A DNA stretch of 64,000 nucleotides from Daucus carota subsp. sativus. Taxonomy: Eukaryota; Streptophyta; Magnoliopsida; Apiales; Apiaceae. The first letter of the stretch is position 1; every line of letters begins with the position of its first letter. The stretch is taken from positions 40,334,390-40,398,389 of the forward strand of contig NC_030384.2 of assembly GCF_001625215.2 (NCBI RefSeq), given 5' to 3'. The notes under the pieces are model-generated. The model had not been told where the DNA came from and did not search any database. It worked only from the letters and a program-made list of their open reading frames with translations. Positions 5,876 through 61,967 of this stretch are shown here, in pieces. A program made the position numbers and the translations under genes.

Positions 5876-6984
5876 TCAGGCAGTGGGATAGGAAGCCTGC
5901 ATTGCAATACCACATAGGCCTTCTTCAGCGGCTATGCCTCTTTGCATCCTTATATAACCTTCTTCACCCCAACTTGTGCCCCATGAGTTCTTCACAAGCC
6001 AATACTTGGTTCCATCCGCGGCAGTGCCATAGCCTACAGCAGTCACTCCATGATCTAACTCAGTTCCACACTGACCTGTAAACACACCACTAGAGTAGAA
6101 CTGGAAGTCGGAACCACTAGCATCAATAGCAACTGAGATTGGTTGATTTGCAACAGCTTTCAGCAGTGCACTCTCACTATTTGCAGGCACATCCTCGTGT
6201 CCAGTTATCGTGGCTGCATGATTTGCTTCTTTGTTGGCATTGCATGTCCCATCAGTTCCACTGTAAGGGTAGTTTGTTTCAGTTGAGAGGCCGTGGTTTT
6301 CTTGGATGAAATCAAACGCATTGTCCATAAGACCACCCTCACAGCCTTGATCCTCACCGCTAGTATCACAATCTACCAATTCTTGCTCGGATAGAGAGAT
6401 CAACTTGCCAGTTTTAAGCTGAGTAATTCCTTCCATAGCTGCCACAGCTGAAAACGCCCAACAGCACCCTGTATTTTAAGAAAGAAGTGTTAAAAGAATA
6501 CTCCAAAATAATAACAGAGTATAAATCATAACATACAAACTAAAGACTTACCACACTGGCCCTGGTCCTTGATAGGAGTAACTGCACCTTTTTTTCTCCA
6601 GTCCATGGTAGATGGCACTGCAGTAACATTTTCATATCGGAATACATTTGTAGACGTGGCGCAAACATGGCTCTTGAATCTGTTTCTTGACGCTGTAAAC
6701 TCTTCATTGGTAAGATCTGCAAATTCATTGGCCCCTAGTTTGTATGGCCTGTTATTTGCTTTATTCATTGTCTGGATGTATTTGAGGTTCTCTTCAAAGA
6801 TGGTAGAACGCCTATGTTTCTCATCAGCTGTTTTGTACACACGTCCATAACGTGTCATCCATTGCTCATGTGTCTCGGTCATTGATGCCTCATTCAAAGA
6901 ACGAGCTGCAGTCAGAGATGCCAAGAATCCGATGGTAAAGAGCAGAGCCAAGACTATGCACTGGTGCTTGACGGTTAAAGCCAT
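5876..6984 (-). CDS. SAG39-like papain-family cysteine protease, copy 1
   Basis: Two exons, 6984-6552 and 6468-5876, are joined across a phase-1 intron (donor GTAAG, acceptor AG) and encode 341 residues. This is a secreted or vacuolar C1A endopeptidase made as a preproenzyme. Residues 1-27 form a signal peptide. An I29 propeptide follows, with an ERFNIN-type helix around residues 45-75 and FADLTNEEF near residue 90. The mature enzyme starts near VPSTMDW (about residue 122). Catalytic residues are Cys147 in GCCWAF (with oxyanion Gln141), His284 in [11 protein letters not shown] and Asn305 in KNSWG. There is no KDEL tail or granulin domain. Relatives act in senescence, cell death and defence. 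All key residues are intact. It is divergently arranged with the F-box gene at 9087. Confidence 0.95.
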
Positions 6985-9013: not shown

Positions 9014-9086
9014 CCTTTATTGTCAACCAATCCACCTTTAAGAATACGAAAGAAAGAGATTTTGGACTGAGCGAGAGAGGCAAGGG

Positions 9087-10367
9087 ATGAAGGGCGTTAA
9101 AGTGTTTGAGTTGTTGACACTCTCAATTTCTGTGTCAATAATTCTTCTAAATAGTTATTACTCCTCAAAGCACAAGCAGAAGCACCTCGAAGAAAAAGAA
9201 GTGAGTGACCACTGGGCTGAACTTGACCGGAATCTATTGGGAGAAATAGCTAGCAGACTCTGCGTGATTGATCGGGCTCGTTTCGGTGCTGTTTGCACCC
9301 AATGGTTGGCCGCGGCTCATATCATTAAAACTAGATTCTCCTCATCATTACCATGGCATGGTTGTCAATATCCAGGCACCCCTGAATTCCGAATCTATGA
9401 CCCATTATCATATCCAAGCCATCTAGTTTCACGACACTTTATAGACTGGTCTGAATTAGGTATTCCATCTGATTCTGATGATGTATATTTGCATGGTGTC
9501 AAGCACAATTGGGTTTTTCTTTCTGTTAGCAAACCAAGATTGTTTTTCTGGAGGCGTAGTCACGTCTTTTTGTTCTCGCCCTTTACTAAAAGAATCATCA
9601 CCCTTCCTACTTTTGACCATCCTGATCGTCTCCGAGTCGTTTCCACGTTTTCCACCCGACCCGATTCACCAGATTGTGTCTTTTGTTGCGTAGACGCTAG
9701 CCAAGTTAACACAATTGTTGTTGCAACATATCGCAATGGTGATGCACAATGGACTTCTAGACGATTCAATAAGCCTCCTGCTTTTAGGCCTGGGAATCTC
9801 CTTTCTCACATCCTTGCTGGAATTCTCTACATTCCTTCTCCTTTTGGACAAGTAGCATCCTATAATATCCGTAATGGAGAATTCAAATTCGACCGTTTGC
9901 GTAGGGACGAGTTTGTGTTTGAGAATTCTTATAGAAGGACAGTCCAGTCGTTTGAGTTGAATGGGGAGTTGCTGATAATAGGTCTTAACCCCGATGTCAG
10001 AAAGGATGCTACTCTTCCAGGCCAGCAATTTGTAAGAAGGTATGATCGCTCGCGCAAGGTTTGGCTACCCGTGAGAACCTTATGGGGTTACGCTTTATTT
10101 TACACTGAAAAGTGTATCGACGTTGCAGTGGTCAATACAAAGAATAAGACATGTAACAGACTATTACCCAACAATGTGTACCGTTTTTTCAGTGGCGGGT
10201 GCCTTGTTTACTCTTTACTGGACGGTGAATTGGTTCAGACTAAGTGTGTAAATTCAAACTTTTTGGGCGATGGCGGGAACGATTTACCTGAATATAAGTA
10301 TAATTATTCTACTCCAGACACAGATTTAGCTTATTGGTTAGAAGCTCCTCGCATCCGCTCCTCCTAA
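9087..10367 (+). CDS. F-box protein with DUF295/KIB-like C-terminal domain, copy 1
   Basis: Intronless frame of 426 residues. A hydrophobic segment at residues 7-25 (FELLTLSISVSIILLNSYY) could anchor the protein in a membrane, which is unusual for F-box proteins. Residues about 42-80 form an F-box (LDRNLLGEIASRLCVIDRAR, then VCTQWL), the part that docks on SKP1 in SCF ubiquitin ligases. The remaining 340 residues resemble the DUF295/KIB beta-propeller type seen in proteins such as At1g57790: HGVKHNWVFLS, the FLFSPFTKRIITLP motif, and RNGDAQWTSRRF. The substrate is unknown. The ATG is supported by conservation of the N-terminus and leader among three paralogues. DNA identity to the copy at 60273 is about 99% and is concentrated in the first two thirds. 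Confidence 0.88.
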   Translation: MKGVKVFELLTLSISVSIILLNSYYSSKHKQKHLEEKEVSDHWAELDRNLLGEIASRLCVIDRARFGAVCTQWLAAAHIIKTRFSSSLPWHGCQYPGTPEFRIYDPLSYPSHLVSRHFIDWSELGIPSDSDDVYLHGVKHNWVFLSVSKPRLFFWRRSHVFLFSPFTKRIITLPTFDHPDRLRVVSTFSTRPDSPDCVFCCVDASQVNTIVVATYRNGDAQWTSRRFNKPPAFRPGNLLSHILAGILYIPSPFGQVASYNIRNGEFKFDRLRRDEFVFENSYRRTVQSFELNGELLIIGLNPDVRKDATLPGQQFVRRYDRSRKVWLPVRTLWGYALFYTEKCIDVAVVNTKNKTCNRLLPNNVYRFFSGGCLVYSLLDGELVQTKCVNSNFLGDGGNDLPEYKYNYSTPDTDLAYWLEAPRIRSS

Positions 10368-15657: not shown

Positions 15658-16962
15658 TCAGGCAGTGGGATAGGAAGCCTGCATTGCAATACCACATAGG
15701 CCTTCCTCAGCAGCTATGCCTCTTTGCATCCTTATGTAACCTTCTTCACCCCAACTTGTGCCCCATGAGTTCTTCACTAGCCAATACTTGGTTCCATCAG
15801 AGGCTGTGCCATAGCCTACAGCAGTCACTCCATGATCTAACTCAGTTCCACACTGACCTGTAAACACACCACTAGAATAGAATTGGAAGTCGGAACCACT
15901 AGCATCAATAGCAACTGAGATTGGTTGATTTGCAACAGCTTTCAGCAGTGCACTCTCACTATTTGCAGGCACATCCTCGTGTCCAGTTATTGTCGCTGCA
16001 TGATTTGCTTCTTTGTTGGCATTGCATGCAGTGGCGGATCTGACTATGAAGTTAAGGGGGGTCAATTTTTTTGTAAAAAAAATTAAAAGGTGTCACAGAA
16101 AAATTAAGGGGGGTCAATTTCAATTTTACAACCTAAAAATATGTATAATATTAACAAACAAAAAAATTAAGGGGGGTCAACTGACCCCTCTTGCCCCTTC
16201 TAAGATCCGCCTCTGATTGCATGTCCCATCAGTTCCACTGTAAGGGTAGTTTGTTTCAGTTGAGAGGCCGTGGTTTTGTTGGATGAAATCAAACGCATTG
16301 TCCATAAGACCACCCTCACAGCCTTGATCCTCACCGCTAGTATCACAATCTACCAATTCTTGCTCGGATAGAGAGATCAACTTGCCAGTTTTAAGCTGAG
16401 TAATTCCTTCCATAGCTGCCACAGCTGAAAACGCCCAACAGCACCCTGAATTTTAAGAAAGAAGTGTTAAAAGAATACTCCAAAAATAATAACAGAGTAT
16501 AAGTCATGACATACAAACTAAAGACTTACCACACTGGCCCTGGTCCTTGATAGGAGTAACTGCACCTTTCTTTCTCCAGTCCATGGTAGATGGCACTGCA
16601 GTAACATTTTCATATCGGAATACATTTGTAGACGTGGCACAAACATGGCTCTTGAATCTGTTTCTTGACGCTGTAAACTCTTCATTGGTAAGATCTGCAA
16701 ATTCATTGACCCCTAGTTTGTATGGCCTGTTGTTTGCTCTGTTAATTGCCTGGATGTATTTGAGGTTCTCTTCAAAGATGGTAGAACGCCTATATTTCTC
16801 ATCAGCTGTTTTGTACACACGTCCATAGCGTGTCATCCATTGCTCATGTGTCTCGGTCATTGATGCCTCATTCAAAGAACGAGCTGCAGTCAGAGATGCC
16901 AAGACTCCGATGGTAAAGAGCAGAGCCAAGACTATGCACTGGTGCTTGACGGTAAAAGCCAT
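15658..16962 (-). pseudogene. SAG39-like cysteine protease, copy 2, interrupted by a MITE
   Basis: Same two-exon structure as copy 1: exon 1 is 16962-16530 and exon 2 is 16445-15658, with the donor and acceptor intact. Signal peptide, I29 propeptide with FADLTNEEF, Cys147 in GCCWAF, and the His and Asn segments are all present. Exon 2 is split after GTDGTCN by a 187-bp hAT-type MITE (16029-16215) plus an 8-bp target duplication. The added 195 bases are a multiple of three, but the inserted sequence holds stop codons, so normal translation would end after the active-site Cys half and lose His and Asn. The rest of the frame is undamaged, so the insertion looks recent. Removal of the element by splicing cannot be excluded from sequence alone. 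Confidence 0.88.
16029..16215. mobile_element. hAT-type MITE inside protease exon 2
   Basis: Ends CAGTGGCGGATC and GATCCGCCTCTG are inverted repeats. The element is flanked by the exact 8-bp duplication ATTGCATG (16021-16028 and 16216-16223), as expected for hAT insertion. Comparison with three intact paralogues defines the empty site exactly. Confidence 0.93.
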
Positions 16963-25944: not shown

Positions 25945-25948
25945 GCAG

Positions 25949-26054
25949 ATGCTGTAACTGAGTCTTGACCCTCCAAATGCACTACTTGTTATCGAAACCT
26001 AATGCTGTAACTGAGTCTTGACCCTCCAAATGCACTACTTGTTATCGAAACCTA
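25949..26054. repeat. Perfect tandem repeat, 53-bp unit x2
   Basis: ATGCTGTAACTGAGTCTTGA... through CGAAACCTA is repeated without change immediately downstream, in the 3' flank of the small membrane-protein gene. The lack of differences suggests a very recent slip. Confidence 0.9.
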
Positions 26055-26385
26055 ATGTGCTCTTTCAACAACATATTTTATCAGTTCATATCATCTTCCG
26101 CTTTGCCTAATACATCAATAAATTACATCCAGGGTCCTCAAGTTTGGGGTGAATTTTATGATAATTGTTTTTGCAGATTATGTTCTTTCATGTTCTGGTC
26201 AAGCCTAAGGTTTTACAAATGTTCAAGTTGCAAGATAAACATTAACTTACATGCAGGCTACAAGAAAACATCTAGAGTAATCCCTTGCCGAGAATGATTA
26301 GAATAATTCAAAACAAAAATGATAAACTCAAGAGTTGTACCAGGCTTTACGATGTAAATTAAAATGATTTAAACAGAAGTATAAA

Positions 26386-29089
26386 CTCAAACGCTAGTAC
26401 TTTAGCTTCTCTGCAATCACATTTGCTCTTAAATTGCAAACAAAATTGTCTGATTACTAAATTAGAGCTAAAATAGCACAGCTCATGAGAATAGTGATCC
26501 TTAGGATACACTAACACCAAACTCCTGGGTTTAAAAAATGGGACAAGGAAGTTCTTACAATTCTTTTTGTTTCTCTTTTCTTTTATAATTTTGCTAAAAC
26601 TAAAAAACTTTAGAGCACAATACAAAAATCACAAAAAAAATTGTGTTTCTTCATTATGCAATTAGGTTTATATTTTTGTTAATTTTTTCAAATAATAATT
26701 GGAAACACAAGATACATCCATCATTAACAACAAAATTAGCGCAAGTTATCCGGAGAAGATTGAAGACATTATTAATGTAGCTGTTTTATAAAATTCAACT
26801 TGCTCTGTCCAAAAATAAATATAAAATTCAACTTGCATTGCGTTTTCTATTGCTCAGGAGCATTTAAAAGCACACAACTCTCACTAATTAAACTAGGAAT
26901 AATAAAAATTGCACTAAAATTAAACTTAAGAACTCAAATTAAAAACTCAGCTACACAGATTCCATGACTCAGCACTGCAAACCCAAACTCGAATCAGACA
27001 ATCGGAAAGAAAATTGGCTACTCAAACTCAGTTAGCTACTCTGACTCGATAAGAAAAACGGAACTCTGGTTTTATAACACACAAAGCTGCAACTAAAAAC
27101 TACTCAAGCCCAACAAACAGACCATGACTCGATTGTAAACACAGACACCACAAAATACATATGTAAATGAAAAGAACAACCTAGCGACTCAGGGCAAAGC
27201 ACAGCAGGACTCAAACTCGTTGGTGACTCGGTTTAGAACTCAAAACAACATATCAAAGAAATCAGCGAAACCCAGACTACAAAAGACACAATCCAAACTC
27301 AAACTTGACTCGGCAATTCAGAAATGAAATCGAAACACAGCAACTCGCAAGATAATTAAACGCAAGTAAGGGAAATGGTTTGATTCTAAAGACAGAGAAG
27401 CAAGGCAGTAAATAAAACGAATAAAACAGAGTATATTACAGTGAATAAAACGAAGGGGAGAGGTCTGGTGAAATAAGGCCTTTTACCTTTGTATTCGTTG
27501 GCCAAATCATATTCAGTTTCATAAATCACACAGCCCTTCTGCAAGTTTCAAAAATCACACAGCCCATCAGCAATAGCTCCCTCCGCTCACCACTGTACAC
27601 CCCAGACACACCAAAACACACACATCACAGACGCAACAAACACACACCCCACTCTGATAGTACCGCCAGCAGCCTAACAGCACACACACACCCAACAGCT
27701 GCCTATAAAACAGTAATCACGCCCCTCCCCTGCAATCAATCGAACTTAACTCCCCAACCCCACACAACCCCAGGATATGCTTGCGCACACACCAGCTGCT
27801 GATGCAGAACACACACCATACATACATCTCCGAATCAGCAGACCCACTACACCTATACAGCCCTCCATCAACCCTCTACAACAGCGCCTCTAGACACCCT
27901 ATACACACCTGTTCCTTGCACCACCAGCCTAACCCACAGCAGCCTCCCCCTGCTAAACTCACACCCCATGCTCTATTTTATACAAGCACACAACAATACA
28001 CATGTATACAGCCCTGATGCAACCCGCTGCAACACCGCCTTCTGATCACCTCTATACACACACACCACACACCCTCACCTCTCCGCTCAACTCGCGCCAT
28101 CAATCCCACATTAGGGGAAAATAAAATTCAACTTGCCTTGCGTTTTCTAGTGCTCAGGAGCACTTAAAAGCACACAACTCTAAATAATTAAACTAGGAAT
28201 AATAAGTCAAATTTCCATTAAAATTAAACTTAAGAACTCAAAATAAAAACTCAGCTACACAGATTCCACAGGGGAGGGGGTCTGGTGACTCGGAATCTTA
28301 ACAGCTCATGAAACTCAGCATACAAACAAGTCAGTAAAACAGGTGAGCTCAGTACACATTCTATAGGATTACTTGTTTTACCAAATACTAAACCAGAGTA
28401 TACAACTAAAGAAGTAGATAGAAGATCAACGTTACTGCAACTCTCAAATCCTCAACACTTAGTACACTTCAAAAATTGAAAGAAATATACAAATTTAGAT
28501 CACGTTAACAAATTCAGTATATATGTGGCAATATAATAAAGCATCACGCATCAGCTAATTTAGTAGGCATCAAACTTATACTCTCATTTACTTCAATATC
28601 ATCGTAAATCGTGTAAACATAGGTTTATACCAACAAAATCAACAGAACCGAAATATGAACAAACCTAATCGAATACAAAACACATATCCACACAACATAC
28701 GCCTAATCACAGGAACTTCAAAAGCTGTACGTAATACGAACAAATCCTGCAGATTGGTAAAAAAATCGATATGAACTTTCTTTTTCTCTTCACAACTTAG
28801 AAAAAGACGCAGCACGAAAAAAACACATACCTAATGACGGATTCAGAAGCTGTAGCGACGAGTGGAACAAAATCAACATAACAGAAATATGAACAAACAC
28901 ATATCTACACAACATAATCGAGTACGCAACACATATCTACACAACATACGCCTAATCAGAAGAACTTCAATCGCTGTAATACGAACAAATCCTGCAGAAC
29001 GGAAAAAAAAACGATATGAACTTTCTTCTACTCTTCACAACTTAGAAAAAGACGCAGCAGAACAATGCATCACATACCTAATCGCGGAT
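26386..29089. other. Duplicated non-coding tract with C/A-rich zone
   Basis: Homologous to 49455-52255. About 27580-28080 is a C/A-rich (plus strand) zone of ACACACACC-like sequence; its open frame is low complexity. No family was recognised. On the minus strand it could be intron or 3' sequence of the candidate transcription unit beginning near 29450. Confidence 0.45.
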
Positions 29090-29100
29090 TCAGATGGTGT
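28636..29100 (-). repeat. Two ~233-bp tandem units with splice-like motifs
   Basis: Each unit starts AAAATCAACA (plus strand) and ends near AGCGACGAG. Read on the minus strand, each contains a donor-like TAG|GTATGTG and, about 70-75 bp later, CTGCAG|GA preceded by a T-rich tract. The segmental copy 2 has three such units (51638-52320). Confidence 0.7.
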
Positions 29101-29386
29101 AGCGACGAGAGGATGCAGTGGGAGCCGGAAACTGAACGAAGAATACTCGGTTTCCCGATCTCGTTACCGGCGGCAATTCTCGTGGCGGCGGCGGCGGAAC
29201 CAGGAGATGGAGGCCATCAGCACGTCGAGCATCCGATCCGGAGAAAAAACGGTGGATAAAACCGTGGACGAGAACGTACATCAAGCTTCCGGCGGTCATC
29301 AAAGCAATCGATGCCAAATCAACACTTAAATTGTGCTCATGATTGTGATTGAGATTGAATTCTTTGTAATCCAGCTTATGAATCAT
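29090..29386 (-). CDS. Unrecognised 98-residue frame in a candidate minus-strand transcript
   Basis: Minus-strand ATG at 29386 opens a frame starting MIHKLDYKEFNLNHNHEHN, followed by LASIALMTAGSLMYVLVHGF (possible membrane helix), an Arg/Ser-rich patch and a proline run (VPPPPPRELPPV), stop at 29090. The leader upstream has a plant 5'-UTR look. The duplicate at 52256-52657 keeps the frame open, with different starts and a 17-residue internal duplication. No family recognised. The frame may instead end at the donor GTATGTG near 29077. Low confidence that it is a protein gene. Confidence 0.3.
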   Translation of the reverse strand: MIHKLDYKEFNLNHNHEHNLSVDLASIALMTAGSLMYVLVHGFIHRFFSGSDARRADGLHLLVPPPPPRELPPVTRSGNRVFFVQFPAPTASSRRYTI

Positions 29387-29770
29387 CTTCAGAAACTCGT
29401 GATACACAACGAAAATGGAACTAGGTTTAACATTAAGCCCTAATTGCCGAGTTTAAAGGCGCGCGGAAGAACGTTCTCGATGCTCGAATAAGTAAATTAC
29501 ATTTTAACCCTCGCATCATGTAAAATATATTTTCGTTTTTGTTTGTTAAATTCTTAAATTTACTTACTATTTATGTTTGTGTTTTCTTTAATTTTAAAAT
29601 GTGTCTATGTCCCATATAAATTATTATAGTTAAGTATTAAATTATTGTATAATTGATCGTATAAATAATTCTAATAAAAATTTGCTTATAAAGATGGATG
29701 TTAAGTCTACGGTGTCGGTGTGTTAATATTTTAAGTTATTAATTTTATTTGTATACTACATCTACGATCA

Positions 29771-30300
29771 TCACGGATGTTGGTTCGTCGAAGGATTTGA
29801 TAAGATTTAGTGCATACTAATGGGGCATCACAGATGTTGTTTCGTCGAAGGATTTGGTAAGATTTCACGCGGTTTCTAAATGATTTTGGCCTGGTAACCG
29901 TATTCTTATGGTAGGGGTTTTTAGAATTCGTGTCGTCATAGTCTACAATGGTATTACATGGGGGTGGGGGAATGCAAGAAAGAGACTCCGTTGGATTGGT
30001 GGCAGTTAGTGCATTGACGGTTGTTGCCAAACGTCCCAGTTTAATATCTCCATTTCAGATCATTGTCACCCATCATCGACAAACGGGAACTGTGTAGGTA
30101 AGTCCCATGTGAAGAAGGCCATGAACTAAGGTATATTAATATTATATCACACACTATATTATTTATTGTGCACTAAGCCGGGGGTCTTCACGGAAACAGC
30201 CTCTCTGCTTTAAGGGCAGGGGCAAGGCTGCGTACATCTTACCCTCCTCAGACGCTGTTCTAAGCGGGATATACCGAGTATGTTTGGTTTGGTTTGGTTT
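29771..30300 (+). mobile_element. Composite retroposon with an Au-SINE-like 3' end
   Basis: An 11-bp exact duplication ATCTACGATCA flanks the insert (29760-29770 and 30301-30311; about 15 bp if one mismatch is allowed). The segmental copy 2 shows the empty site near 53036. The last 130 bp match the plant Au-type SINE tail: CGGAAACAGCCTCTCTGC, GGCTGCGTACATCTTACCCT, and a 3' end of TTTGG repeats. The first 400 bp are not SINE-like and contain two copies of TTCGTCGAAGGATTTG. A chimeric SINE or a retroposed transcript fused to a SINE tail fits best. Confidence 0.7.
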
Positions 30301-31794
30301 ATCTACGATCACCACTTCTCACTCAATAAATCTTTGGGGATGCAACTCAAAAAATTAAAATTGTAAATAAAAAATAAGCAGCAGCGGCAAATCGAGCAAG
30401 TGCAAAAAAAAATAAATGAAATCATGTCGTAATGCTTTCATTTATTAAAGTCTACCTCTCCTATCATGTTATTTTAAGTCATATAATTTAAATTTCATAA
30501 ATGCCGAAATACTCTCTTTTGGTAGCTAATTTGGATGTTCGTGGTGTGTCTCTTTGAGATAGATGATCAACAGAATTTTGTGAAGGATACCAAATTATGG
30601 TAACGTAAAAATGTTTAAATAAGAAAATAATGAGAAGTTTAAAATGATAAATAGCTTTTCATAGAATCTAACACAAAATTATTGTAGTAATTTTATATCT
30701 CCAATTCTACGATTTTTTATATAGTGTTTTCGTAAAAATATATTGAAAAACTGACCATGCATCACATGTAATGAAAAGTATGCTCTTCATGATAATAGTA
30801 TCTTCATTAATAATTGATTGATTATTGATTTAATGTATATGATAAAATTAAGTTTAAATTCATTATAATTATTTCTCGGCCTCGCCTCATGACGAAACCT
30901 CGATTTCTTTATTATTATCTTTCAAAATTATATATTTAATAAATCACACTGTGTTAAAAGTATTTAAATACATTTAAGTGATATTAATATAAATTAAAAT
31001 AAATATATTATAAATTGTTTTAAATTAATGGAAGAACAATTTATATTTATGGACTGTTTTCGAAATATAAATTTAACAATATCTTTGTCGTGAAAGATAA
31101 ACTCTTGCAACATTCACCACCGTTCCATATTTGATGCGAGTCTTATAGATCCAAAATATCATGTAAATCCTTCCTACAAACATGATCGAAACCCATTACA
31201 TATCACACAAAAACATTAAAGCAAACATAAAAAATCCCAAAAAGATGGGCACAACTAATAAACCTGATGAAAGGTACTCAACAAGAATTTGCCCAAAAAA
31301 GGTTAGATCTTGATTTTATTTAAAAAAACTAATAAATAGGAGAGAAGATTGAAGAGCGAAGATGATTAGCCAGTAAAGAAGATGAAGGTTGAAGAGCATA
31401 GAGGTGGCGACTATAATCCTAATTTTGGGAGTCGACTCTCAAAAGTGCAAGCGGTTGTTTTTTTCACGATATCTAGTTTACTTCTTTTAGTGTGTATGTA
31501 TCATAAATTTGATGATAACTAATACAAATAATCAATTATATGAATCGTATGAATTGATTTCATAATGATGAACATCAAAAAAGGGATAAAAATGGTCGTC
31601 TACACGTGGGATGGCAATTGGCTCGGTCAAACCTGAATCCATCGGGTGTTGTTTGAGTTTGGTTCGGATTTCCACAAACTCTAGTGAGGGAATATTAATA
31701 TCTGTTTCAAGCCAAAAGGCTCCTGGTTTAGACGATGTCGAAATTGTTGGAATTTTGGTTAGAAATCAGATAAGGCAATGGATCAGCATTCTAA

Positions 31795-48718: not shown

Positions 48719-49031
48719 CTATTTTCCACAATTTGCAGTCCAATGTACCTTCCATGTAAGCTAAAGGTGCTGAATTAAAAAACTGGTCCAATACTCCAAT
48801 GCAAATTCCATTTTATAAGATTAACAAAAATTAGAAACAAGTGAAACGGGAAGGGAGGAGTACTGCAAGTAATAGTATAGACAGAGAAGCAAGAGGCGAG
48901 CCGTCCTCCGGTGGTGGGACAGTCCCTCCGTTTTTAGTATTCTTCAATGCAAAATGTTAGTCCCAATTGCCCAAAGCAGGAAGTGCCTCTTGGACCCTCC
49001 TCCCAGATTGTGGCATTTGGATCCGCACTTC

Positions 49032-49066
49032 AAACTAAGTATATCTGTAAAATTGCCCAAGATATC
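49032..49066. other. 35-bp micro-inversion relative to segmental copy 1
   Basis: AAACTAAGTATATCTGTAAA through CCCAAGATATC is the exact reverse complement of 21057-21091, while the flanks (GCATTTGGAT left, GACCTCATTACAGTG right) are collinear in both copies. Confidence 0.92.
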
Positions 49067-51637
49067 ACAAAGATAGACCTCATTACAGTGTCTGGAGAAA
49101 TATAACTTTTGCATATTCGGCAATACGTTATACGTTAGTTTGTACTCTGTAGTTGTGGGATAATTATAATATTTATGTGTTCACAGTATGCTCCAGATGG
49201 TCCTCCTGGGCAATAAGTGGACTCTGATTCTTATGCACCACACATGGAAGTTGAAATTAGTGTTAGGTATATTGTTAAAACTAAACAAAACTGAAGGTGC
49301 TGATTGTTGTTCTTTGGAATATAAAGCACCACAGAGCTTAAATCATTGTGGGTAATTGGATAATAATCTGGTGAGAAGCTTAATGTTTGAAAATTAGTAC
49401 GAAGTCTAAAATTAGATTGCTGTAGGTTTTAATGTTAGGATCAACTCATACGCTTACTTTAGCTTCTCTGCAATCACATTTGCTCTTAAATTGCAAACAA
49501 AAATAGCACAGCTCATGAGAATAGTGATCCTTGGGATACACTAACACCAAACTCCTGGGTTTAAAAAATGGGACCAGAAGTTCTTACAATTCTTTTCGTT
49601 TCTCTTTTCTTTTATTCTTTTGCTTCAACTAAAAAACTTTAGAGCACATTACAAAAATCACAAAAAAAATTGTGTTTCTTCATTATGCAATTAGGTTTAT
49701 ATTTTTGTTAATTTTTTCAAATAATAATTGGAAACACAAGATACATCCATTATTAACAACAACAAAATTAGCGCAAGTTATTCGGAGAAGATTGAAGACA
49801 TTATTAATGTAGCTGTTTTATAAAATTCAATTTGCTCTGTCCAAAAATAAAAATTAAATTCAACTTGCATTGCGTTTTCTATTGCTCAGGAGCATTTAAA
49901 AGCACACAACTCTCACTACTGATTAAACTAGGAATAATAAGTCAAACTTGCACTAAAATTAAAATTAAGAACTCAAAATAAAAACTCAGCTACACAGATT
50001 CCATGACTCGGCACTGCAAACCCAAACTCGAATCAGACAATCGGAAAGAAAATCGGCTACTCAAACTCAGTTAGCTACTCTGACTCGAAAAGAAAAACGA
50101 AACTCGGTTTCATAACACACAAAGCTGCAACTAAAAACTACTCAAGCCCAACAAACAGACCATGACTCAGATTGTAAACACAGACACCACAAAAAACATA
50201 TGTAAATGAAAAGAACAACCTAGCGACTCAGGGCAAAGCACAGCAGGACTCAAACTCGTTGGTGACTCGGTTTAGAACTCAAAACAACATATCAAAGAAA
50301 TCAGCGAAACCCAGACTACAAAAGACACAATCCAAACTCAAACTTGACTCGGCAATTCAGAAACGAAATCGAAACACAACAACTCGCAAGATAATTAAAC
50401 GCAAACAAGGGAAATGGTTTGATTCTAAAGACAGAGAAGCAGGGCAGTAAATAAAACGAATAAAACAGAGTATTTTTCAGTGAATAAAACGAAGGGGGGC
50501 GGGTCTGGTGAAATAAGGCCTTTTACCTTTGTATTTGTTCGCCAAATCTTGTTCAGTTTCATAAATCACACAGCCCTTCTGCAATAGCTCCCTCCGCTCA
50601 CCACTGTACACCCCAGACACACCAAAACACACACATCACATACGCGACAAACACACACCCCAGCCTGATAGTACCGCCAGCAGCCTAACAGCACACACGC
50701 ACCCAAAAGCTGCCTATAAAACAGTAATCACACCCCTCCCCTGAAATCAATCGAACTTAACTCCGCAACCCCACACAACCCCTGGCTATGCTCGCCCACA
50801 CACCAGCTGCAGATGCAGAACACACACCCCTGCATATACATCTCCTAATCAGCAGACCCACTAAACCTATACAGCCCTCCATCAACCCTCTACAACAGCG
50901 CCTCTAGACACCCTATACACACCTGTTCCTCGCACCACCAGCCTAACCCACAGCAGCCTCCCCCTGCTAAACTCACACCCCCTGCTCTATTTTATACAAA
51001 CACACAATAATACACATTTATACAGCCCTGCTGCAACACCGCCTTCTGATCACCTCTATACACACACACCACACACCCTCACCTCTCCGCTCAACTCGCG
51101 CCATCAATCCCACATTAGGGGAAAATAAAATTCAACTTGCCTTGCGTTTTCTAGTGCTCAGGAGCACTTAAAAGCACACAACTCTGAATAATTAAACTAG
51201 GAGTAATAAGTCAAACTTGCACTAATATTAAATTTAAGAACTCAAAATAAAAACTCAGCTACACAGATTCCACAAGGGAGGGGGTCTGGTGACTCAGAAT
51301 CTTAACAGCTCATGAAACTCAGCATACAAACAAGTCAGTAAAACAGGTGAGCTCGGTACACATTCTATAGAATTACTTGTTTTACCAAATACTAAACCAG
51401 AGTATACAACTAAAGAAGTAGATAGAAGATCAACGTTACTGCAACTCTCAAATCCTCAACACTTAGTACACTTCAAAAATTGAAAGAAATATACAAATTT
51501 AGATCACGTTAACAAATTCAGTATATATGTGGCAGTATAATAAAGCATCACGCATCAGCTAATTTAGTAGGCATCAAACTTATATGCTCATTTACTTCAA
51601 TATCATCGTAAATCGTGTAAACATATGTTTATACCAA

Positions 51638-52320
51638 CAAAATCAACAGAACGGAAATATGAAGAAACCTAATCGAATACGCAACACATATCTACACAAC
51701 ATACACCTAATCACATGAACTTCAATAGCTGTAATACGAACAAATCCTGCAGAACGAAAAAAAAAATGATATCAACTTTCTTCTTCTCTTCACAACCTAG
51801 AAAAAGACGTAGCAGAACAGGAAAAACACATACCTAGCGGATTCAGAAGCTGGAGCGACGAGAGGAACAAAATCAACATAACAGAAATATGAAGAAACCT
51901 AATCGAATATGCAACACATATCTACACAACATACGCAATCACAGGAACTTCAATAGCTGTAATACGAACAAATCCTGCAGAACGAAAAAAAAACGATATC
52001 AACTTTCTTCTTCTCTTCACAACCTAGAAAAAGACGTAGCAGAACAGGAAAAACACATACCTAGCGGATTCAGAAGCTGGAGCAACGAGAGGAACAAAAT
52101 CAACATAACAGAAGAAATATGAAGAAACCTAATCGAATATGCAACACATATCTACGCAACATACGCAATCACAGGAACTTCAATAGCTGTAATACGAACA
52201 AATCCTACAGAACGAAAAAAAAAAACGATATAAACTTTTTTCTTATCTTCACAACTTAGAAAAAGACGCGAACAATACAGGAAAAACACATACAGAAGCT
52301 CTGGCGACGAATGGACGCAG
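51638..52320 (-). repeat. Three ~229-bp tandem units with splice-like motifs
   Basis: Units start AAAATCAACA at about 51638, 51868 and 52096. On the minus strand, units 1 and 2 contain CGCTAG|GTATGTG followed 75 bp later by a T-rich tract and CTGCAG|GA; unit 3 has lost bases next to its donor (CACATACAGAAG on the plus strand) and its acceptor reads CTGTAG. Copy 1 has only two units (28636-29100). Confidence 0.8.
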
Positions 52321-52657
52321 TGGGAGCCGGAAAACGAACTATGAACATTCGGTTCTCCGATCTCGTTACCGGCGGCGATCCTCGTGGCGGTGGCGGAACC
52401 AGGAGATGGAGGCCATCAGCACGTCGAGCATCCGAGCCGGAGACAAAACTGCGGTTTTGCATAAAACCGTGGACGAGAACGTCCGAGCCGGAGACAAAAC
52501 TGCGGTTTTGCATAAAACCGTGGACGAGAACGTAGAGCAAGCCTCCGGCAGTCATCAAAGCAATCGATGCCAAATCAACAGTCACATTGTGACTATGATT
52601 GTGATTGAGATTGAATTCTTTGTACTCCAGCTTGTGGATGATGTTCCAAAACCCCAT
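52256..52657 (-). CDS. Unrecognised 133-residue frame, paralogue of the frame at 29090
   Basis: Minus-strand frame from ATG 52657 (MGFWNIIHKLEYKEFN...), with DLASIALMTAGGLLYVLVHGF (possible helix), two exact copies of VLVHGFMQNRSFVSGSD encoded by a 51-bp tandem duplication, then SDARRADGLHLLVPPPPRG and a basic tail. The frame stays open across the duplication, and most differences from copy 1 in this stretch are substitutions. There is no known family. It may be the first coding exon of a minus-strand gene or part of a long non-coding transcript. Confidence 0.3.
   Translation of the reverse strand: MGFWNIIHKLEYKEFNLNHNHSHNVTVDLASIALMTAGGLLYVLVHGFMQNRSFVSGSDVLVHGFMQNRSFVSGSDARRADGLHLLVPPPPRGSPPVTRSENRMFIVRFPAPTASIRRQSFCMCFSCIVRVFF
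52431..52532. repeat. 51-bp tandem duplication, in frame
   Basis: TCCGAGCCGGAGACAAAACT through GTGGACGAGAACG is present twice without difference; 51 is a multiple of three, so the minus-strand frame is kept. Copy 1 of the segmental duplication has a single version. Confidence 0.92.
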
Positions 52658-53830
52658 GATACACAACGAAAATGGAACTAGGTTTCACATCAAGCCCTAA
52701 TTCCCGAGTTTAAAGGCGCGCGAAAGAACGTTCTCGATGCTCGAATAAGTAAATTACATTTTAACCCTCGGATTATGTAAATTATATTTTCGTATTTGTT
52801 TGTTAAATTCTTAAATTTACTTACTATTTATGTTTGTGTTTTCTTTAATTTTAAAATGTGTCTATGTCCCATATAAATTATTATAGTTAAGTATTGAAAT
52901 ATTGTATAATTGATCATATAAATAATTCTAATAATGATTTACTTATAAATATTAGTTATTTTTTATGGATGGATGTTAAGTCTACGGTGTTAGTGTGTAA
53001 ATATTTTACGTTATTTTTTTCGTTATTTGTAAACTATATCTATGATCGTCACTTTTTACTCAATAAATCTTTAGGAATGTAACTCACTCAAAAAATTAAA
53101 ATTGTAAATAAAAAATAAATAGCAGGTGCAAAAAAAATTAAAAAAACGAAATCATGTCATAATGCTTTCATTTATTAGAATCTACTTCTCCTGTCATGTT
53201 ATTTCAAATCATATACTTTAAATTTCATAAGTGCCGAAATACTATCTTTTGGTAGTTAATTTGGATGTTCATGGTGTGTCTCTTTGAGATAGATGATCAA
53301 CAGAATTTTGTGGAGGATGCCAAATTATGGTAACGTAAAAATGTTTAAATAAGAAAATAATGAGATGTTTAAAATGATAAATAGCTTTTCTTAAAATCTA
53401 ATACAAAATTATTGTAGTAAATTTATATCTTCAATTCTACGATTTATATATACAGTGTTTTCATAAAAATATATTGAAAAACCGACCATACATCACATGT
53501 AATGAAGAGTATGCTCTTGATCGATTATTGATTTGATATACATATAATAAAATTAAGTTTAAATTTATTATAGTTGTTTTCCGGTCTCGCCTCACGGCGA
53601 GACCTCGATTTCTTTATTATTATCTTTTAGAATTATATATTTAATAAATCACACCGTGTTGAAAGTATTTAAATACATTGAAGTGATATTATAATAAATT
53701 AAAATAATTATATTATAATTTGTTTTAAATTAATGGAAGAACAATTTATGTTTATGGACTGTTTTTGAAAAATAAATTTAAATAAACTCTTGCAATATCA
53801 TGTAAATTCTTCTTACAAACATGACCATCG

Positions 53831-54385: not shown

Positions 54386-55501
54386 ATGTCTTTCACAAGC
54401 AAGCACCAATTGGTTGTTATGGCTATGATCTTCACTGTCGGGGTCCTGGGATCTCTTGCTGCAGCTCGTTCTTTGAGTGAGGTCGAAGCCTCACCAATCA
54501 TGACTCATGACCAATGGATGTCACACTACAGCCGTGTGTACAAAGATGCTGATGAGAAAACCATGCGTTCCACCATCTTCAGTAAGAACCTGGAATACAT
54601 AGAGTCATTTAACAAGGCCAATACCAAGCCATACAAACTGGGGGTCAATGAATTTGCAGACCTTACAAATGAGGAGTTCACAACCACAAGGAACAGATAC
54701 AAAAGCCATGTATGTTCCACAGCCACAAATTTGTTCAGATATGCAAATGTTAGTGCATTGCCGTCTAGCATGGACTGGAGAAAGAAAGGTGCAGTTACAC
54801 CTGTCAAAGACCAAGGCCAATGTGGTAAGTTTTATGCTCAGAAAGATAAAATTTATACACGAATGAAATATTATATCTTCTAACATTAACAATTATTATT
54901 ATATACAGGGTGCTGCTGGGCTTTTTCGGCTGTGGCAGCCATGGAAGGAATTACCCAGCTTAAAACTGGCAAGTTGATCTCTCTATCAGAGCAAGAACTG
55001 GTTGACTGTGATACTAGCGGCGAAGATCAAGGCTGTGAGGGTGGTCTTATGGACAATGCCTTTGATTTCATCCAGCAAAACCACGGCCTCTCAACTGAAA
55101 CTAACTATCCTTACAGTGGAACTGATGGGACATGCAATGCCAACAAAGAAGCAAATCATGCAGCCACGATAACCGGGCACGAGGATGTGCCTGCAAATAG
55201 CGAGAGTGCGCTGCTAAAAGCTGTTGCAAATCAACCAATCTCCGTTGCTATTGATGCTAGTGGTTCGGACTTCCAGTTCTACTCAAGTGGTGTTTTTACT
55301 GGACAATGTGGAACTGAATTAGATCATGGAGTGACTGCTGTAGGCTATGGCACCGCTTCTGATGGAACCAAGTATTGGCTGGTGAAGAACTCATGGGGTA
55401 CAATCTGGGGCGAAGAAGGTTACATAAGGATGCAAAGAGGCATCAAGGCCAAAGAAGGCCTCTGCGGCATAGCAATGGAGGCTTCATACCCAACTGCTTA
55501 A
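54386..55501 (+). CDS. SAG39-like papain-family cysteine protease, copy 3
   Basis: Exons 54386-54824 and 54909-55501 joined by a phase-1 intron give 343 residues. Signal peptide ([18 protein letters not shown]), I29 propeptide with the ERFNIN-type helix and [11 protein letters not shown], mature enzyme from about [13 protein letters not shown]. Catalytic Cys149 (GCCWAF), His286 ([11 protein letters not shown]) and Asn307 (KNSWG) are intact. It is a C1A endopeptidase with a likely vacuolar or apoplastic location. Exon 1 is close to copy 4 and clearly different from copies 1 and 2 (about three quarters identical), while exon 2 is very similar in all four. It has an Ile (GTIWGEEG) where the others have Ser. 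The ATG is fixed by an in-frame TAA (54371-54373) just upstream. Same orientation as copy 4, opposite to copies 1 and 2. Confidence 0.95.
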
Positions 55502-57672
55502 AAGTCAAAAACAAGCAGAAACAATGGCTTATGTATATAAATATGAATCATGCAAGCACTGAAAATATATCCCGCCGTGCAAGAACTTGTATATTGTAAA
55601 CAGCTTGGTCATATTAATCTCTGAACTATGCTTATTTTAAATTTGAAGTTCTGACCTCTTCTCTTGTTACTTCTAGTTTCATATATTTTTTTTATTGCTT
55701 GTCTCGAGGCATTTTATCAAGAATTATTTTATTGAACATATGAGTTCTGTTTAAGGTCTTTCCGGTTGCCATGTTTGTGGTTCAAATTTGCCCCAAATAT
55801 TGTGCTAATTTTAAACAAGAGAAACCATTTAAAAAGATACTCTCTGGATTTGACACCATCTGGAATACCTATTTTCCTGAAAATTGCTTCTGCAAAATAT
55901 AAATAACTTGAGTTGGAGGAATTAAAATTTAGCCATCAGCCTACCATTTGCATTTAAAAACTCCTGTCTCAAGACACAGAATAAAGAAGAATGAGGCCTT
56001 CATCATATACTCAATAAGGTACTTTTGTTTATTGTTTATGTTATCATGTTGCTCACTAGATTGCAAGTAAAACTGTGCTTGCTATACTTCATTGTAGTGG
56101 TATACAATCCTCCTGATTGTCCTATTCTCCCATGATAAGGATATTGAATATCAATTTCTCATTAGCTGCTTGCAGCCATCTGTTTGTTAAAACAAAATTT
56201 AAAATAAATAGCGTTTACTTTCTCTACCTACTCCATTGACAGTTTTTGGTGAACTATTAGATGGACCGGTTCTCATTATGACATTAGAGCTCAACTTCGA
56301 CCGAGTTCTCAATTTAGACTCTCCGTCACTCCAATATTCTCACAATATAATATGGACACGAAGGCATTAATTGTCCCAAAGATGAGCGCTCGTGATCCAC
56401 TCTTCAACCCAAAAAATAGGATTTCGCATAAGATTTATTTAGGCCCTTCCTCTAAATCCTTAAAATTTTAGATGGATTAGTTCTCAACAGTTTTGGATCC
56501 GTGGAGTTGAATGGAACTGAAATCTAGACTTAAACAACATTTTGCAGCTGTTCTTACACGAGATTGTTCTCATCTTCCTGGGACATTCCAATTTTTAGCA
56601 TTTGGCAGGACTTTTAGCAGGAAACATAATTTCAGGGAATACTACCAATATAATGAAGCAGGTCAACTTTTATATGTTTAACAGCTGCATTGCATGCAAT
56701 ATGGGCAGAGAGAAACAGTAGAAAGCACAAATCTGGACTGGAAAAATCAAAAGAGACATTATTCAGAGAGGTTCTGTCTAATGTGCGAGGGAAGGTTAGT
56801 ACTTGCAATTTATATACCAGGAGAGCCCGGCAGGATCCAGCCATATATACTTTTTTATGTTGACTATTTAGATTGTTTCTGGCAGAATGTGTTCTTGCTT
56901 TGCTATTAATCTACTGCTTTTATTTTCTTGTAGACTGCTTGGGCTGTCAAGTCGTTCAGTAAGCATTCGTTGTATTCTTTTTGCCTGTTTTATGAAATTT
57001 CTACTTAATTAGCAAAAATAATAATTTCAAACAGGCATTAGCATGCCTGTATTTCCATTTTACGACTTCCTCTCCAGAGACAATACTACATTATACTCTG
57101 GGACATAAACAAGCTCTTCTTCGTGGTTGTGATCGTTACTGCTGCTCTGTTCTGTGCATGGATTGCCACTAATTTTACAATGCATGCAAGTGTACCTAAA
57201 ATTATTGTTCTTCTGTATATGCAATTCTTATTCGGACCACAGTTGTAAATGGAACATACTTAGAGAAATGCAAATGGAATTCATACTTTAGAGAAATGAA
57301 ATAATACAATTTCATCAAGGATCCAGAAGAAACCTTTGCCCATTGCCCAAAGCACTTGCACAGACATACATAATACATACTTGATTCTTGTTATGTCAAA
57401 GCAATTCAAAGTACTTGCAAGCTAATTGTGTTCACATACATTCTAGATCATATGTTAGTGTTATAATTTAAAAGAAGAGGCATGCGAATCATGCTGTCCA
57501 AAAGTGTGTAGGAATAACAACAAAATTACGACGTAGTTTGTCAATAATCATATTTGATAATCAACAACCCGATTTAAGTGGCACGCGGATATTATAATTA
57601 ATCTTCTTGAAAGAAAGTTGAAATGACTAGCTTGATAGAGATATCATCTTCAATTTATCTGACCTGTAATCC
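55502..57672. other. Spacer between protease copies 3 and 4
   Basis: 3' flank of copy 3 and 5' flank of copy 4. No gene, no clear transposon end. 55940-56000 (CATTTGCATTTAAAAACTCC, ACTCCTGTCTC) matches parts of the direct repeat around the third F-box gene (59590-59650 and 62480-62540), so it is probably a third remnant of that repeat. Confidence 0.5.
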
Positions 57673-57680
57673 TATATAAT
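57673..57680 (+). promoter_or_regulatory. TATA box of protease copy 4
   Basis: TATATAAT lies 71-78 bp upstream of the ATG at 57751. Confidence 0.6.
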
Positions 57681-57750
57681 GAAAGGTATGCGGAGTAACT
57701 GCATAAGCTTCCCCAGGAACAGAAAGAGCTACCTTTCTCACAAGCAAAAG

Positions 57751-58865
57751 ATGTCTTTCACAAGCAAGCACCAATTGGTTGTTATGGCTATGATCTTCAC
57801 TGTCGGGGTCTTGGCATCTCTTGTTGCAGCTCGTTCTTTGAGTGAGGTCGAGGCCTCGCCAATCATGACTCATGAGCAATGGATGTCACACTATGGCCGT
57901 GTGTACAAAGATGCTGAAGAGAAAACAATGCGTTCTACCATCTTCAGTAAGAACCTGGAATACATCGAGTCATTTAACAAGGCAAATACCAAGCCATACA
58001 AACTGGGGATCAATGAATTTGCAGACCTTACAAATGAGGAGTTCACGACCACAAGGAACAGATACAAAAGCCATGTATGTTCCACAGCCACAAATACGTT
58101 CAGATATGCAAATGTTAGTGCATTGCCGTCTACCATGGACTGGAGAAAGAAAGGTGCGGTTACACCTGTCAAGGACCAAGGCCAATGTGGTAAGTTTTAT
58201 GCTCGAAGGATAAAATTTATACACGAATGAAATATTATGTCTTCTAACATTCATAATTATTATCATATACAGGGTGCTGCTGGGCTTTTTCAGCTGTGGC
58301 AGCCATGGAAGGAATTACTCAGCTTAAAACTGGCAAGTTGATCTCTCTGTCAGAACAAGAATTGGTTGACTGTGATACTAGCGGCGAAGATCAAGGCTGT
58401 GAGGGTGGTCTTATGGACAATGCCTTTGATTTCATCCAGCAAAACCACGGCCTCTCAACTGAAACCAACTATCCTTACAGTGGAACTGATGGGACATGCA
58501 ATGCCAACAAAGAAGCAAATCATGCAGCTACGATAACTGGACACGAGGATGTGCCTGCAAATAGCGAGAGCGCACTGCTGAAAGCTGTTGCGAATCAACC
58601 AATCTCAGTTGCCATTGATGCTAGTGGTTCCGACTTCCAATTCTACTCTAGTGGTGTGTTTACAGGTCAGTGTGGAACTGAGTTAGATCATGGGGTGACT
58701 GCTGTAGGCTATGGCACAGCTGCTGATGGAACCAAGTATTGGCTGGTGAAGAACTCATGGGGTACAAGCTGGGGCGAAGAGGGTTACATAAGGATGGAAA
58801 GAGGCATTAAGGCCAAAGAAGGCCTCTGCGGCATAGCAATGGAGGCTTCATACCCAACTGCTTAA
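57751..58865 (+). CDS. SAG39-like papain-family cysteine protease, copy 4
   Basis: Exons 57751-58189 and 58273-58865, phase-1 intron, 343 residues. Architecture as in copy 3: signal peptide, I29 propeptide, catalytic Cys149, His286, Asn307. The frame is open for 24 codons upstream of the chosen ATG, but copy 3 has a stop in the equivalent leader and the family signal peptide begins at MSFTSKHQ, so the later ATG is preferred. Exon 1 and the intron are nearly the same as copy 3. Within exon 2, however, stretches such as GGTGTGTTTACAGGTCAGTG match the inverted copy 1, 52 kb away, and not copy 3 (GGTGTTTTTACTGGACAATG). This suggests gene conversion. All active-site residues are intact. Confidence 0.95.
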
Positions 58866-59735: not shown

Positions 59736-60191
59736 TGAAATCTACAACGCGCCTAATTCCATAAAATCTCTTGAATCTTGATCAGACTTAGGAAAATGTA
59801 AAATTCATGATAAAGTCGTGTCAGATTCAAGGATTTTCAAAACTAATAAATTTTTGAATATCACTGCGTTGTAATGGATTGTTTATAATCCATAAATAGT
59901 TTCAAATTTTAAAATATTAATTAAAATCTAGATTGAATACTTAAACTTTTTATATATAATAAAATATAATTAAAATATAAAAAGTAATCTCCCCAATTTT
60001 AACTATTTTTTAAATATTAGAATATCCAAACTTTTGAAAATAACACAAATATATAATCTAAAATATAAATTTGGCCTTGTGTAAAAATTTTGAATAACTG
60101 GAATTAAAAAAGGAAGGAATAAGTTATCTCCCAGCTAGATTGGTGTTCTTAACAAATCAAATAACTAAATGGATTATGACTTCGTACGTGT

Positions 60192-60199
60192 TATGAATA
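60192..60199 (+). promoter_or_regulatory. Degenerate TATA box of F-box copy 3
   Basis: TATGAATA, 74-81 bp upstream of the ATG, same altered form as copy 1. Confidence 0.45.
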
Positions 60200-60272
60200 C
60201 CTTTCTTGTCAACCAATCCACCTTTAAGAATACGAAAGAAAGAGATTTTGGACTGAGCGAGAGAGGCAAGGG

Positions 60273-61553
60273 ATGAAGGGCGTTAAAGTGTTTGAGTTGT
60301 TGACACTCTCAATTTCTGTGTCAATAATTCTTCTAAATAGTTATTACTCCTCAAAGCACAAGCAGAAGCACCTCGAAGAAAAAGAAGTGAGTGACCACTG
60401 GGCTGAACTTGACCGGAATCTATTGGGAGAAATAGCTAGCAGACTCTGCGTGATTGATCGGGCTCGTTTCGGTGCTGTTTGCACCCAATGGTTGGCCGCG
60501 GCTCATATCATTAAAACTAGATTCTCCTCATCATTACCATGGCATGGTTGTCAATATCCAGGCACCCCTGAATTCCGAATCTATGACCCATTATCATATC
60601 CAAGCCATCTAGTTTCACGACACTTTATAGACTGGTCTGAATTAGGTATTCCATCTGATTCTGATGATGTATATTTGCATGGTGTCAAGCACAATTGGGT
60701 TTTTCTTTCTGTTAGCAAACCAAGATTGTTTTTCTGGAGGCGTAGTCACGTCTTTTTGTTCTCGCCCTTTACTAAAAGAATCATCACCCTTCCTACTTTT
60801 GACCATCCTGATCGTCTCCGAGTCGTTTCCACGTTTTCCACCCGACCCGATTCACCAGATTGTGTCTTTTGTTGCGTAGACGCTAGCCAAGTTAACACAA
60901 TTGTTGTTGCAACATATCGCAATGGTGATGCACAATGGACTTCTAGACGATTCAATAAGCCTCCTGCTTTTAGGCCTGGGAATCTCCTTTCTCACATCCT
61001 TGCTGGAATTCTCTACATTCCTTCTCCTTTTGGACAAGTAGCATCCTATAATATCCGTAATGGAGAATTCAAATTCGACCGTTTGCGTAGGGACGAGTTT
61101 GTTTTTGAGAATTCTTATAGAAGGATAGTCCAGTCGTTTGAGTTGAATGGGGAGTTGCTGATAATAGGTCTTAACCCCGATGTCAGAAAGGATGCTACTC
61201 TTCCGGGCCAACAATTTGTAAGAAGGTATGATCGGTCGCGCAAGGTTTGGCTACCCGTGAGAACCTTATGGGGTTACGCTTTATTTTACACCGAAAAGTG
61301 TATCGACGTTGCAGTGGTCAATACAAAGGATAAGACATGTAACAGACTATTACCCAACAATGTGTACCGTTTTTTCAGTGGCGGGTGCCTTGTTTACTCT
61401 TTACTGGACGGTGAATTGGTTCAAACTAAGTGTGTAAATTCAAACTTTTTGGGCGATGGCGGGAACAATTTACCTGAATATAAGTACAATTATTCTACTC
61501 CAGACACAGATTTAGCTTATTGGTTAGAAGCTCCTCGCATCCGCTCCTCCTAA
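60273..61553 (+). CDS. F-box protein with DUF295/KIB-like C-terminal domain, copy 3
   Basis: Intronless, 426 residues, differing from copy 1 at three residues by eye (Ile for Thr in SYRR-VQ, Asp for Asn in NTK-KT, Asn for Asp in GGN-LPEY). Same N-terminal hydrophobic segment, F-box (about residues 42-80) and DUF295-like region. Predicted SCF adaptor of unknown target. The first 830 coding bases and 67 bases of leader are identical to copy 1, whereas the last 450 bases carry about nine differences, several of which agree with copy 2. It is flanked by the direct repeats at 59093 and 61968, so the gene appears to have been placed into, or duplicated with, that repeat. Confidence 0.88.
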   Translation: MKGVKVFELLTLSISVSIILLNSYYSSKHKQKHLEEKEVSDHWAELDRNLLGEIASRLCVIDRARFGAVCTQWLAAAHIIKTRFSSSLPWHGCQYPGTPEFRIYDPLSYPSHLVSRHFIDWSELGIPSDSDDVYLHGVKHNWVFLSVSKPRLFFWRRSHVFLFSPFTKRIITLPTFDHPDRLRVVSTFSTRPDSPDCVFCCVDASQVNTIVVATYRNGDAQWTSRRFNKPPAFRPGNLLSHILAGILYIPSPFGQVASYNIRNGEFKFDRLRRDEFVFENSYRRIVQSFELNGELLIIGLNPDVRKDATLPGQQFVRRYDRSRKVWLPVRTLWGYALFYTEKCIDVAVVNTKDKTCNRLLPNNVYRFFSGGCLVYSLLDGELVQTKCVNSNFLGDGGNNLPEYKYNYSTPDTDLAYWLEAPRIRSS

Positions 61554-61967
61554 AGACAATTAAGGTGAAATAAGAGTTCGGGTAGTCATGATTGTTTTAG
61601 TATTTAAGTTTTTTATATTGTGTTAGTATTTAAGTTTTTTATTTGACCATGACTGTGTTACTTTTAAAATTGCATAGAGGTTCTGATGCTACTGGGATAT
61701 ACAATTTCGGCTATTAACAATGATTTTGCAGGGTCTAGTAGAATTTTGGATGTGTTTCAGTTTTGAGATAAAGAATTAGAATTATGGGATGAGTTTGATT
61801 TAATTGATTTTAATTATTAGGGATGGAATTTGGAAGAGTGTAAATTATGAGAACCATTGCGCAAGCTGGTTTTAGATTCTGATACGTGGGATTGGAACAC
61901 TTGAACTAAAATAAGACCCTGTCAGCTCAAATTCACAAGGTAGTTTCAAGGTAGTTTCTCAAGATTT

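Follow-up and report, generated by a model that had tools for sequence, protein, structure and literature searches.

The closest described systems come from surveys of duplicated plant genes. In rice, 377 conversions were reported in 626 gene families, with a mean tract of 130 nt and 39% within chromosomes; conversion was infrequent beyond about 35 kb, pairs in the same and in the reverse direction were converted at similar rates, and the Ka/Ks (ratio of nonsynonymous to synonymous rates) of converted families resembled that of others (PMC2277409, in the parts on which we draw). For angiosperms, a model that joins birth-and-death evolution with conversion has been described (PMC3924838, likewise in part). 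Our subject is the 64-kb carrot window C4:40334390-40398389 (the whole stretch of DNA that was analysed; positions below are those of the window unless a chromosome is given) and the four papain-type cysteine protease genes in it, here called c1 to c4, each of which has two exons; c1 and c2 lie on the minus strand, and c3 and c4 on the plus strand. We consider it likely that the pattern of similarity among these genes reflects selection on the mature enzyme, together with short exchanges between paralogues in the middle of exon 2 that are silent in the protein.

One such tract, of about 145-248 nt in exon 2 of c4, is well supported as having been shared by exchange with the lineage of c1, c2 and C7a, a copy on C7. 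The event is of an ordinary kind, in which a short conversion tract that leaves the protein unchanged is added to selection, and the length of the tract fits the short ectopic tracts, within and between chromosomes, that the rice survey describes (PMC2277409, same parts). Conversion is infrequent there beyond about 35 kb, whereas c1 and c4 are now about 51 kb apart; the partner may be another copy or an ancestor. As in the angiosperm model, one family combines duplication with a broken copy and conversion now and then, although that model, in the part cited, stresses duplicates from polyploidy (PMC3924838) and the window proteases look like local and dispersed duplicates. A literature search over titles and the openings of abstracts returned nothing plainly on conversion among plant papain-like proteases, and a search on the carrot protease family listed nothing to the point. 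For plant biology, the locus is a further example of gene conversion over a short tract within a local cluster of protease genes.

Alignment placed exon 1 of c1, with the signal peptide, the propeptide and the start of the mature enzyme, at 6552..6984 and its exon 2, with the mature protease, at 5876..6468 (minus strand; Peptidase_C1 match at C4:40340271-40340861). Columns 1-588 of the exon-2 alignment correspond to c1 positions 6466 down to 5879. By the same means, c2 has exon 1 at 16530..16962 and exon 2, split by a 187-nt element, at 15658..16445 (minus strand), and c3 has its exons at 54386..54824 and 54909..55501 (plus strand). For c4 (plus strand), Pfam assigned the I29 propeptide domain (E 3.1e-20) and the start of Peptidase_C1 to exon 1 (57751..58189) and Peptidase_C1 (E 2.1e-74) to exon 2 (58273..58865); the c1-c3 loci were also among the genome-search matches. 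The nearest solved chain for c4 exon 2 was 1s4v, a cysteine endopeptidase (E 6.4e-97). What we take to be the ERFNIN pattern is readable in the protease alignment, and an NSWG stretch is present in the aligned sequences; this stretch and a conserved companion presumably have catalytic roles. The genes c1-c4 are predicted to encode enzymes of the papain family C1A; c4 has Peptidase_C1 and I29 in common with the papain-type plant cysteine proteases, and no unusual features were seen in the proteins, c2 being probably dead.

The genome searched comprised 441 Mb in 11 contigs. The closest relatives found outside the window were C7a (C7:23767405), C7b (C7:35558233) and C3a (C3:320508), followed by C4b (C4:48363767) and three C1 genes. 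Exon 1 grouped these sequences into type A (c1, c2, C7a and C7b) and type B (c3, c4 and C3a). C4b served as the outgroup in trees and simulations and was left out of the triplet counts; C1a and C1b were used in alignments and the site table only, and C1c in the distance table as well. Further loci (L012 and L016-L021) were used only for exon location, L012 additionally in one flank comparison. C7a (L010, C7:23764500-23771000) is a dispersed c1-type copy that includes the flanks, at 93% identity over 1.7 kb around c1, and thus the protease family has also spread between chromosomes.

The original prediction was that the two pairs, c1/c2 and c3/c4, share about three quarters of their exon-1 bases, which agrees with the 77.5-79.6% measured for the four cross pairs, and that exon 2 is in the mid-90s percent for all copies, which is too high: c1/c2 are 98.0% and c3/c4 94.9% identical there, but the cross pairs only 90.6-92.2%. 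The near identity of c3 and c4 in exon 1 (95.4%) and in the intron (93.9%, with the intron junction set one base off) was as claimed, and the two are no closer in exon 2 than in exon 1. For the cross pairs, the nonsynonymous divergence (dN) fell about 10-fold, from 0.165-0.176 in exon 1 to 0.012-0.017 in exon 2, while the synonymous divergence (dS) was 0.58-0.75 and 0.39-0.53, respectively; the dN/dS ratio (omega) under a codon model was 0.255 in exon 1 and 0.045 in exon 2. The contrast between the exons is therefore real but was overstated, and it is mostly selection on the mature enzyme. With the exon-1 synonymous divergence, an exon-2 identity of 88.2-89.9% was predicted, and in comparison with the observed values exchange explains only about 1.5-2.6 of the 11.9-13.5 points of contrast. 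The synonymous sites, which had been described as identical, differ across the pairs at 39.5-49.5 of about 130 in exon 2, and no significant gap in synonymous proportions was found between exon 1 and exon 2 for the four cross pairs (Fisher; P = 0.097, 0.067, 0.335 and 0.155). A constraint on the silent sites of exon 2, through splicing or RNA signals, might also lower dS, and the point estimates for A-B comparisons are indeed lower in exon 2; but between C7a and C7b dS rises from 0.28 in exon 1 to 0.69 in exon 2, and both exons show a large dS to C4b, which leaves this explanation with hardly any credibility.

Within exon 2, a local change of relationship was seen in c4 at columns 264-408 (58538..58682, plus strand; outer limits 58473-58720), as delimited by site counts and by triplet and approximately unbiased (AU) tests. 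At sites that separate c3 from c1, c4 has 12 c3-like and 3 c1-like states in columns 1-198, 1 c3-like and 12 c1-like in columns 264-408, and 21 c3-like and 2 c1-like in columns 447-588; in the final 57 or so nucleotides of the exon, the copies mostly split again into c1/c2 and c3/c4. The earlier observation of a run in c4 exon 2 that matches c1 and not its neighbour c3 was thus borne out. The silent-codon triplet of c4 against c3 and c1 (c4|c3,c1) was significant by permutation in exon 2 (P = 5e-5; 1e-4 in a rerun) and in exons 1 and 2 together (P = 1e-4). When codons were simulated on a single tree separating types A and B (the A-versus-B tree), this triplet reached P <= 0.0005 in 0 of 500 simulations and P = 0.01 in 5 of 500. 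Sawyer's run test on the four copies gave c1-c4 as the best pair, with seven silent sites (global P = 0.0075). Among seven family members, silent triplets passing the Bonferroni threshold numbered 9 of 206 tested in exons 1 and 2 together and 4 of 166 in exon 2; of 210 triplets in each case, those were tested that had at least 8 informative sites and at least 4 of each kind.

Over columns 264-408, limits that were picked post hoc from the data, as were those of the other segments in the dS and AU comparisons, the tree in which c4 alone is moved to the c1/c2/C7a lineage was preferred (AU; P = 0.699), the A-versus-B tree was rejected (P = 0.031), and a move of c4 to c1 alone was also accepted (P = 0.446). 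Over columns 199-447, the move to the lineage was again preferred (P = 0.807; A-versus-B tree, P = 0.051), and it was rejected in columns 1-198 (P = 0.013), in columns 448-588 (P = 1e-7), in exon 1 and in exon 2 as a whole (P = 0.003). By both the site counts and this reversal in the AU test, again with post hoc limits, the nearest relative of the tract differs from that of both flanks. In columns 181-480, dS was 0.36 for c3-c4 and 0.21 for c1-c4, compared with 0.13 and 0.63 in exon 1 and with 0.09 and 1.59 at the 3' end. A topology change had been expected from separate segment trees at the exon-2 boundary; there is none at that boundary, and the change lies inside exon 2.

These tests also bear on the form in which exchange was originally proposed, namely that exon 2 was homogenised by exchange between inverted paralogues about 50 kb apart. 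If the whole of exon 2 had been swapped between c1 and c4, c1-c4 would be expected as the top pair, as it is in the four-copy Sawyer test. On the whole exon, however, the A-versus-B tree holds (AU; P = 0.997 among three trees and 0.518 among five), and besides the move of c4 to the c1/c2/C7a lineage its move to c1 is rejected as well (P = 9e-5); in columns 448-588 both moves have values of 1e-7 and below, and c4 has no clearly better partner among c1, c2 and C7a. A swap extending over exon 2 was therefore rejected by the AU test on the whole exon and on its 3' end, and we hold it to be very unlikely. Of the proposed exchange, the part that concerns a short stretch of c4 is supported; the inverted geometry is no more than possible, with c1, c2 and C7a fitting about equally well as partners. 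Nor is exchange in the tract what keeps the catalytic domain common, as had been suggested, because the amino acids across it are identical in c1, c2, C7a, c3, c4 and C3a, C7b differing at one, and the omega of 0.045 in exon 2 is enough for the similarity of the proteins, so that exchange is unneeded to keep the enzymes alike.

Several results weigh against an exchange in c4. With seven genes, no pair was significant in Sawyer's test (best global P = 0.13). The silent counts of c4|c3,c1 did not differ between the exons (29:7 in exon 1 and 26:15 in exon 2, P = 0.13), and hence the c4 signal rests on clustering inside exon 2; the comparison of synonymous distances that had been proposed as a check likewise gave no significant contrast between whole exons and a significant one only as local clustering in c4. 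The segment limits were chosen after the fact, the A-versus-B tree stays above 5% with wider limits (P = 0.055 for columns 181-480 and 0.051 for columns 199-447), and the simulations assumed one omega and one rate across all sites of an exon. It is conceivable, then, that there was no exchange at all, that exon 2 is alike through purifying selection alone, and that the run shared by c4 and c1 arose by chance or because fast silent sites changed more than once; the omega of 0.045 in exon 2, the synonymous proportions (P = 0.067-0.335), the seven-gene Sawyer test and the acceptance of the A-versus-B tree on the whole of exon 2 all agree with this. We nevertheless regard it as improbable, since the silent clustering of c4|c3,c1 was reproduced in none of the 500 single-tree simulations, the number of significant triplets in exon 2 was reached in only 1 of 120, and the A-versus-B tree was rejected at 0.031 in columns 264-408, although with post hoc limits.

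The partner in the exchange can be narrowed to a lineage. Over the 145 nt of columns 264-408, c4 differs from c1 at 5 positions, from c2 at 5, from C7a at 6, from C3a at 9, from c3 at 16 and from C7b at 21; c1, c2 and C7a are therefore about equal as partners, and the comparison points to their lineage without separating the three as donors. At columns 267, 300 and 306, c3 has the same base as C3a, and c4 the same base as c1/c2/C7a; at column 384, c4 is the only other gene compared that carries the c1/c2/C7a state. At the shared sites of the tract, c4 is unlike C3a, and c1/c2/C7a are unlike C7b; no direction emerged when C3a, C7b and C4b were used for polarisation.

The remaining sites belong with the points of the opposite side. 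The outgroup C4b carries the c4 base at columns 267 and 300, where old states may have been kept; C3a joins c1 and c4 at columns 357, 375, 393 and 396, with c3 differing; c3 alone differs among the seven genes at columns 264, 390 and 408; and column 339 groups c4 with C3a and C7b and sets it apart from c1 and c3. Part of the run may therefore be c3 departing, or old states being kept, rather than c4 receiving. In its full form, this would make c3 the odd copy, its middle replaced from an unsampled paralogue or left in an older state, and c4 would retain a state shared with c1 and C3a. The four columns at which c4, C3a and c1 agree would fit, as would the state that c3 shares with C7b and C4b at 375 and 393 and with C4b at 390 and 408, and the identity of the c3 middle (210 nt), which is 92% to C3a, 93% to c1 and only 90% to c4. 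Against such a history stand columns 267, 300 and 306, at which c3 has the C3a state and c4 that of c1/c2/C7a (shared by C4b at 267 and 300), and column 384, whose c1/c2/C7a state is found only in c4 among the other genes shown; moreover, a genome search with the c3 middle revealed no closer donor than c1 and C3a among the 13 matches listed. We think it unlikely as an account of the whole run.

An exchange involving c4 remains our preferred explanation, and a wider mosaic may accompany it. In the middle of c1 exon 2 (columns about 199-532; 5935..6268, minus strand), c1, c2 and C7a are nearer to c4 and C3a than to C7b, according to silent sites, dS and triplets. The silent sites of c1 that agree with C7b or with c4 number 24:7 in exon 1 and 25:35 in exon 2 (Fisher; P = 0.0017), and the dS of c1-C7b and c1-c4 is 0.75 versus 0.21 in columns 181-480 and 0.40 versus 1.59 at the 3' end. 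Eight exon-2 triplets were significant (1/301), a number matched in 1 of the 120 simulations, and the exon-2 triplets c1|C7b,C3a, C7a|C7b,C3a and c1|C7b,c4 were each matched in 0 of 500. In an AU set of five trees, the A-versus-B tree, besides its value for the whole of exon 2 given above, had P = 0.989 for exon 1, 0.424 for the first 180 columns, 0.893 for the 3' end and 0.055 for columns 181-480, where the best tree placed c4 beside c1/c2/C7a (P = 0.941); the trees joining c4 with c1 in this set move C3a or C7b too, and those of the later three-tree set move c4 alone. Also to be counted against exchange are the significant triplets of exons 1 and 2 together, of which 12 were observed and as many occurred in 4 of 120 simulations, and the triplet c1|C7b,c4 over both exons, for which 10 of 120 simulations gave a significant result; these figures lower the security of the wider mosaic. 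With that lower security, a wider exchanged stretch would make c1/c2/C7a resemble the B genes more than C7b, and it is probably older than the c4 tract.

A history along the following lines would account for these observations. Two older types, A (with C7a and C7b) and B (with C3a), would have given rise to the four copies of the window; as dN/dS shows, constraint was weak on exon 1, with the signal peptide and the propeptide, and strong on exon 2, which encodes the mature enzyme. Two short stretches near the centre of that exon, the c4 tract and the wider one of columns 199-532 or so, would have been exchanged between paralogues, presumably by non-reciprocal gene conversion, in which a break is repaired from a paralogue template. 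A contrast in identity between exons is easily misread in such a family, being mostly selection, with a small exchanged part that is visible only through silent sites and additional paralogues; trees of whole coding sequences, or duplication dates, for such clusters mix histories.

Besides the proteases, the window contains a pair of KIB1-4-type genes on the same strand, 51 kb apart, with open frames at 9042-10367 and 60228-61553 (Pfam Beta-prop_KIB1-4 in the first). The coding limits used, 9099-10364, begin 12 bases inside the first ATG of the frame. The pair is 99.2% identical with a dS of 0.025, and a third gene (17785-19101) has a dS of 0.116-0.120 from them. Pairwise alignment of 8637-10385 with 59827-61572 showed 22 substitutions in 1749 nt, indel columns excluded, and none over an identical run of 897 nt (9020..9916, plus strand) with diverged flanks. 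A gap of 897 nt arose in 4 of 1,000,000 uniform random placements, and with a probability of about 3e-5 within the coding part alone, uniform placement ignoring uneven constraint. The run speaks for exchange of sequence in the cluster, or for a partial overwrite of very recent date, separate from the c4 tract. A broader possibility, which we put forward as doubtful, is that conversion recurs throughout the family at a hotspot in mid-exon 2, regardless of chromosome and orientation, and leaves promoters, signal peptides and propeptides isolated, and that the cluster, with the KIB1-4-type exchange, is an active exchange neighbourhood of 64 kb.

Sequence comparison and the genome search identified the insertion in exon 2 of c2 (16029..16215, minus strand) as a 187-nt element with imperfect 12-base terminal inverted repeats (CAGAGGCGGATC / CAGTGGCGGATC) and an 8-bp target duplication (CATGCAAT). 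At least 40 copies including this one are present in the genome, at 92-100% identity, and we take the element to be hAT-like. The first in-frame stop of c2 exon 2 comes 88 codons in, upstream of the NSWG stretch, and is brought by the element; c2 is probably dead.

The window holds two further sets of repeats. The segments 20046-31076 and 48720-53781 form a collinear direct segmental duplication, with main pieces about 83-94% identical, which ends just before c3. Large direct repeats also lie between the c1 and c2 units at 10456-14932, with one 1.9-kb pair being 95% identical.

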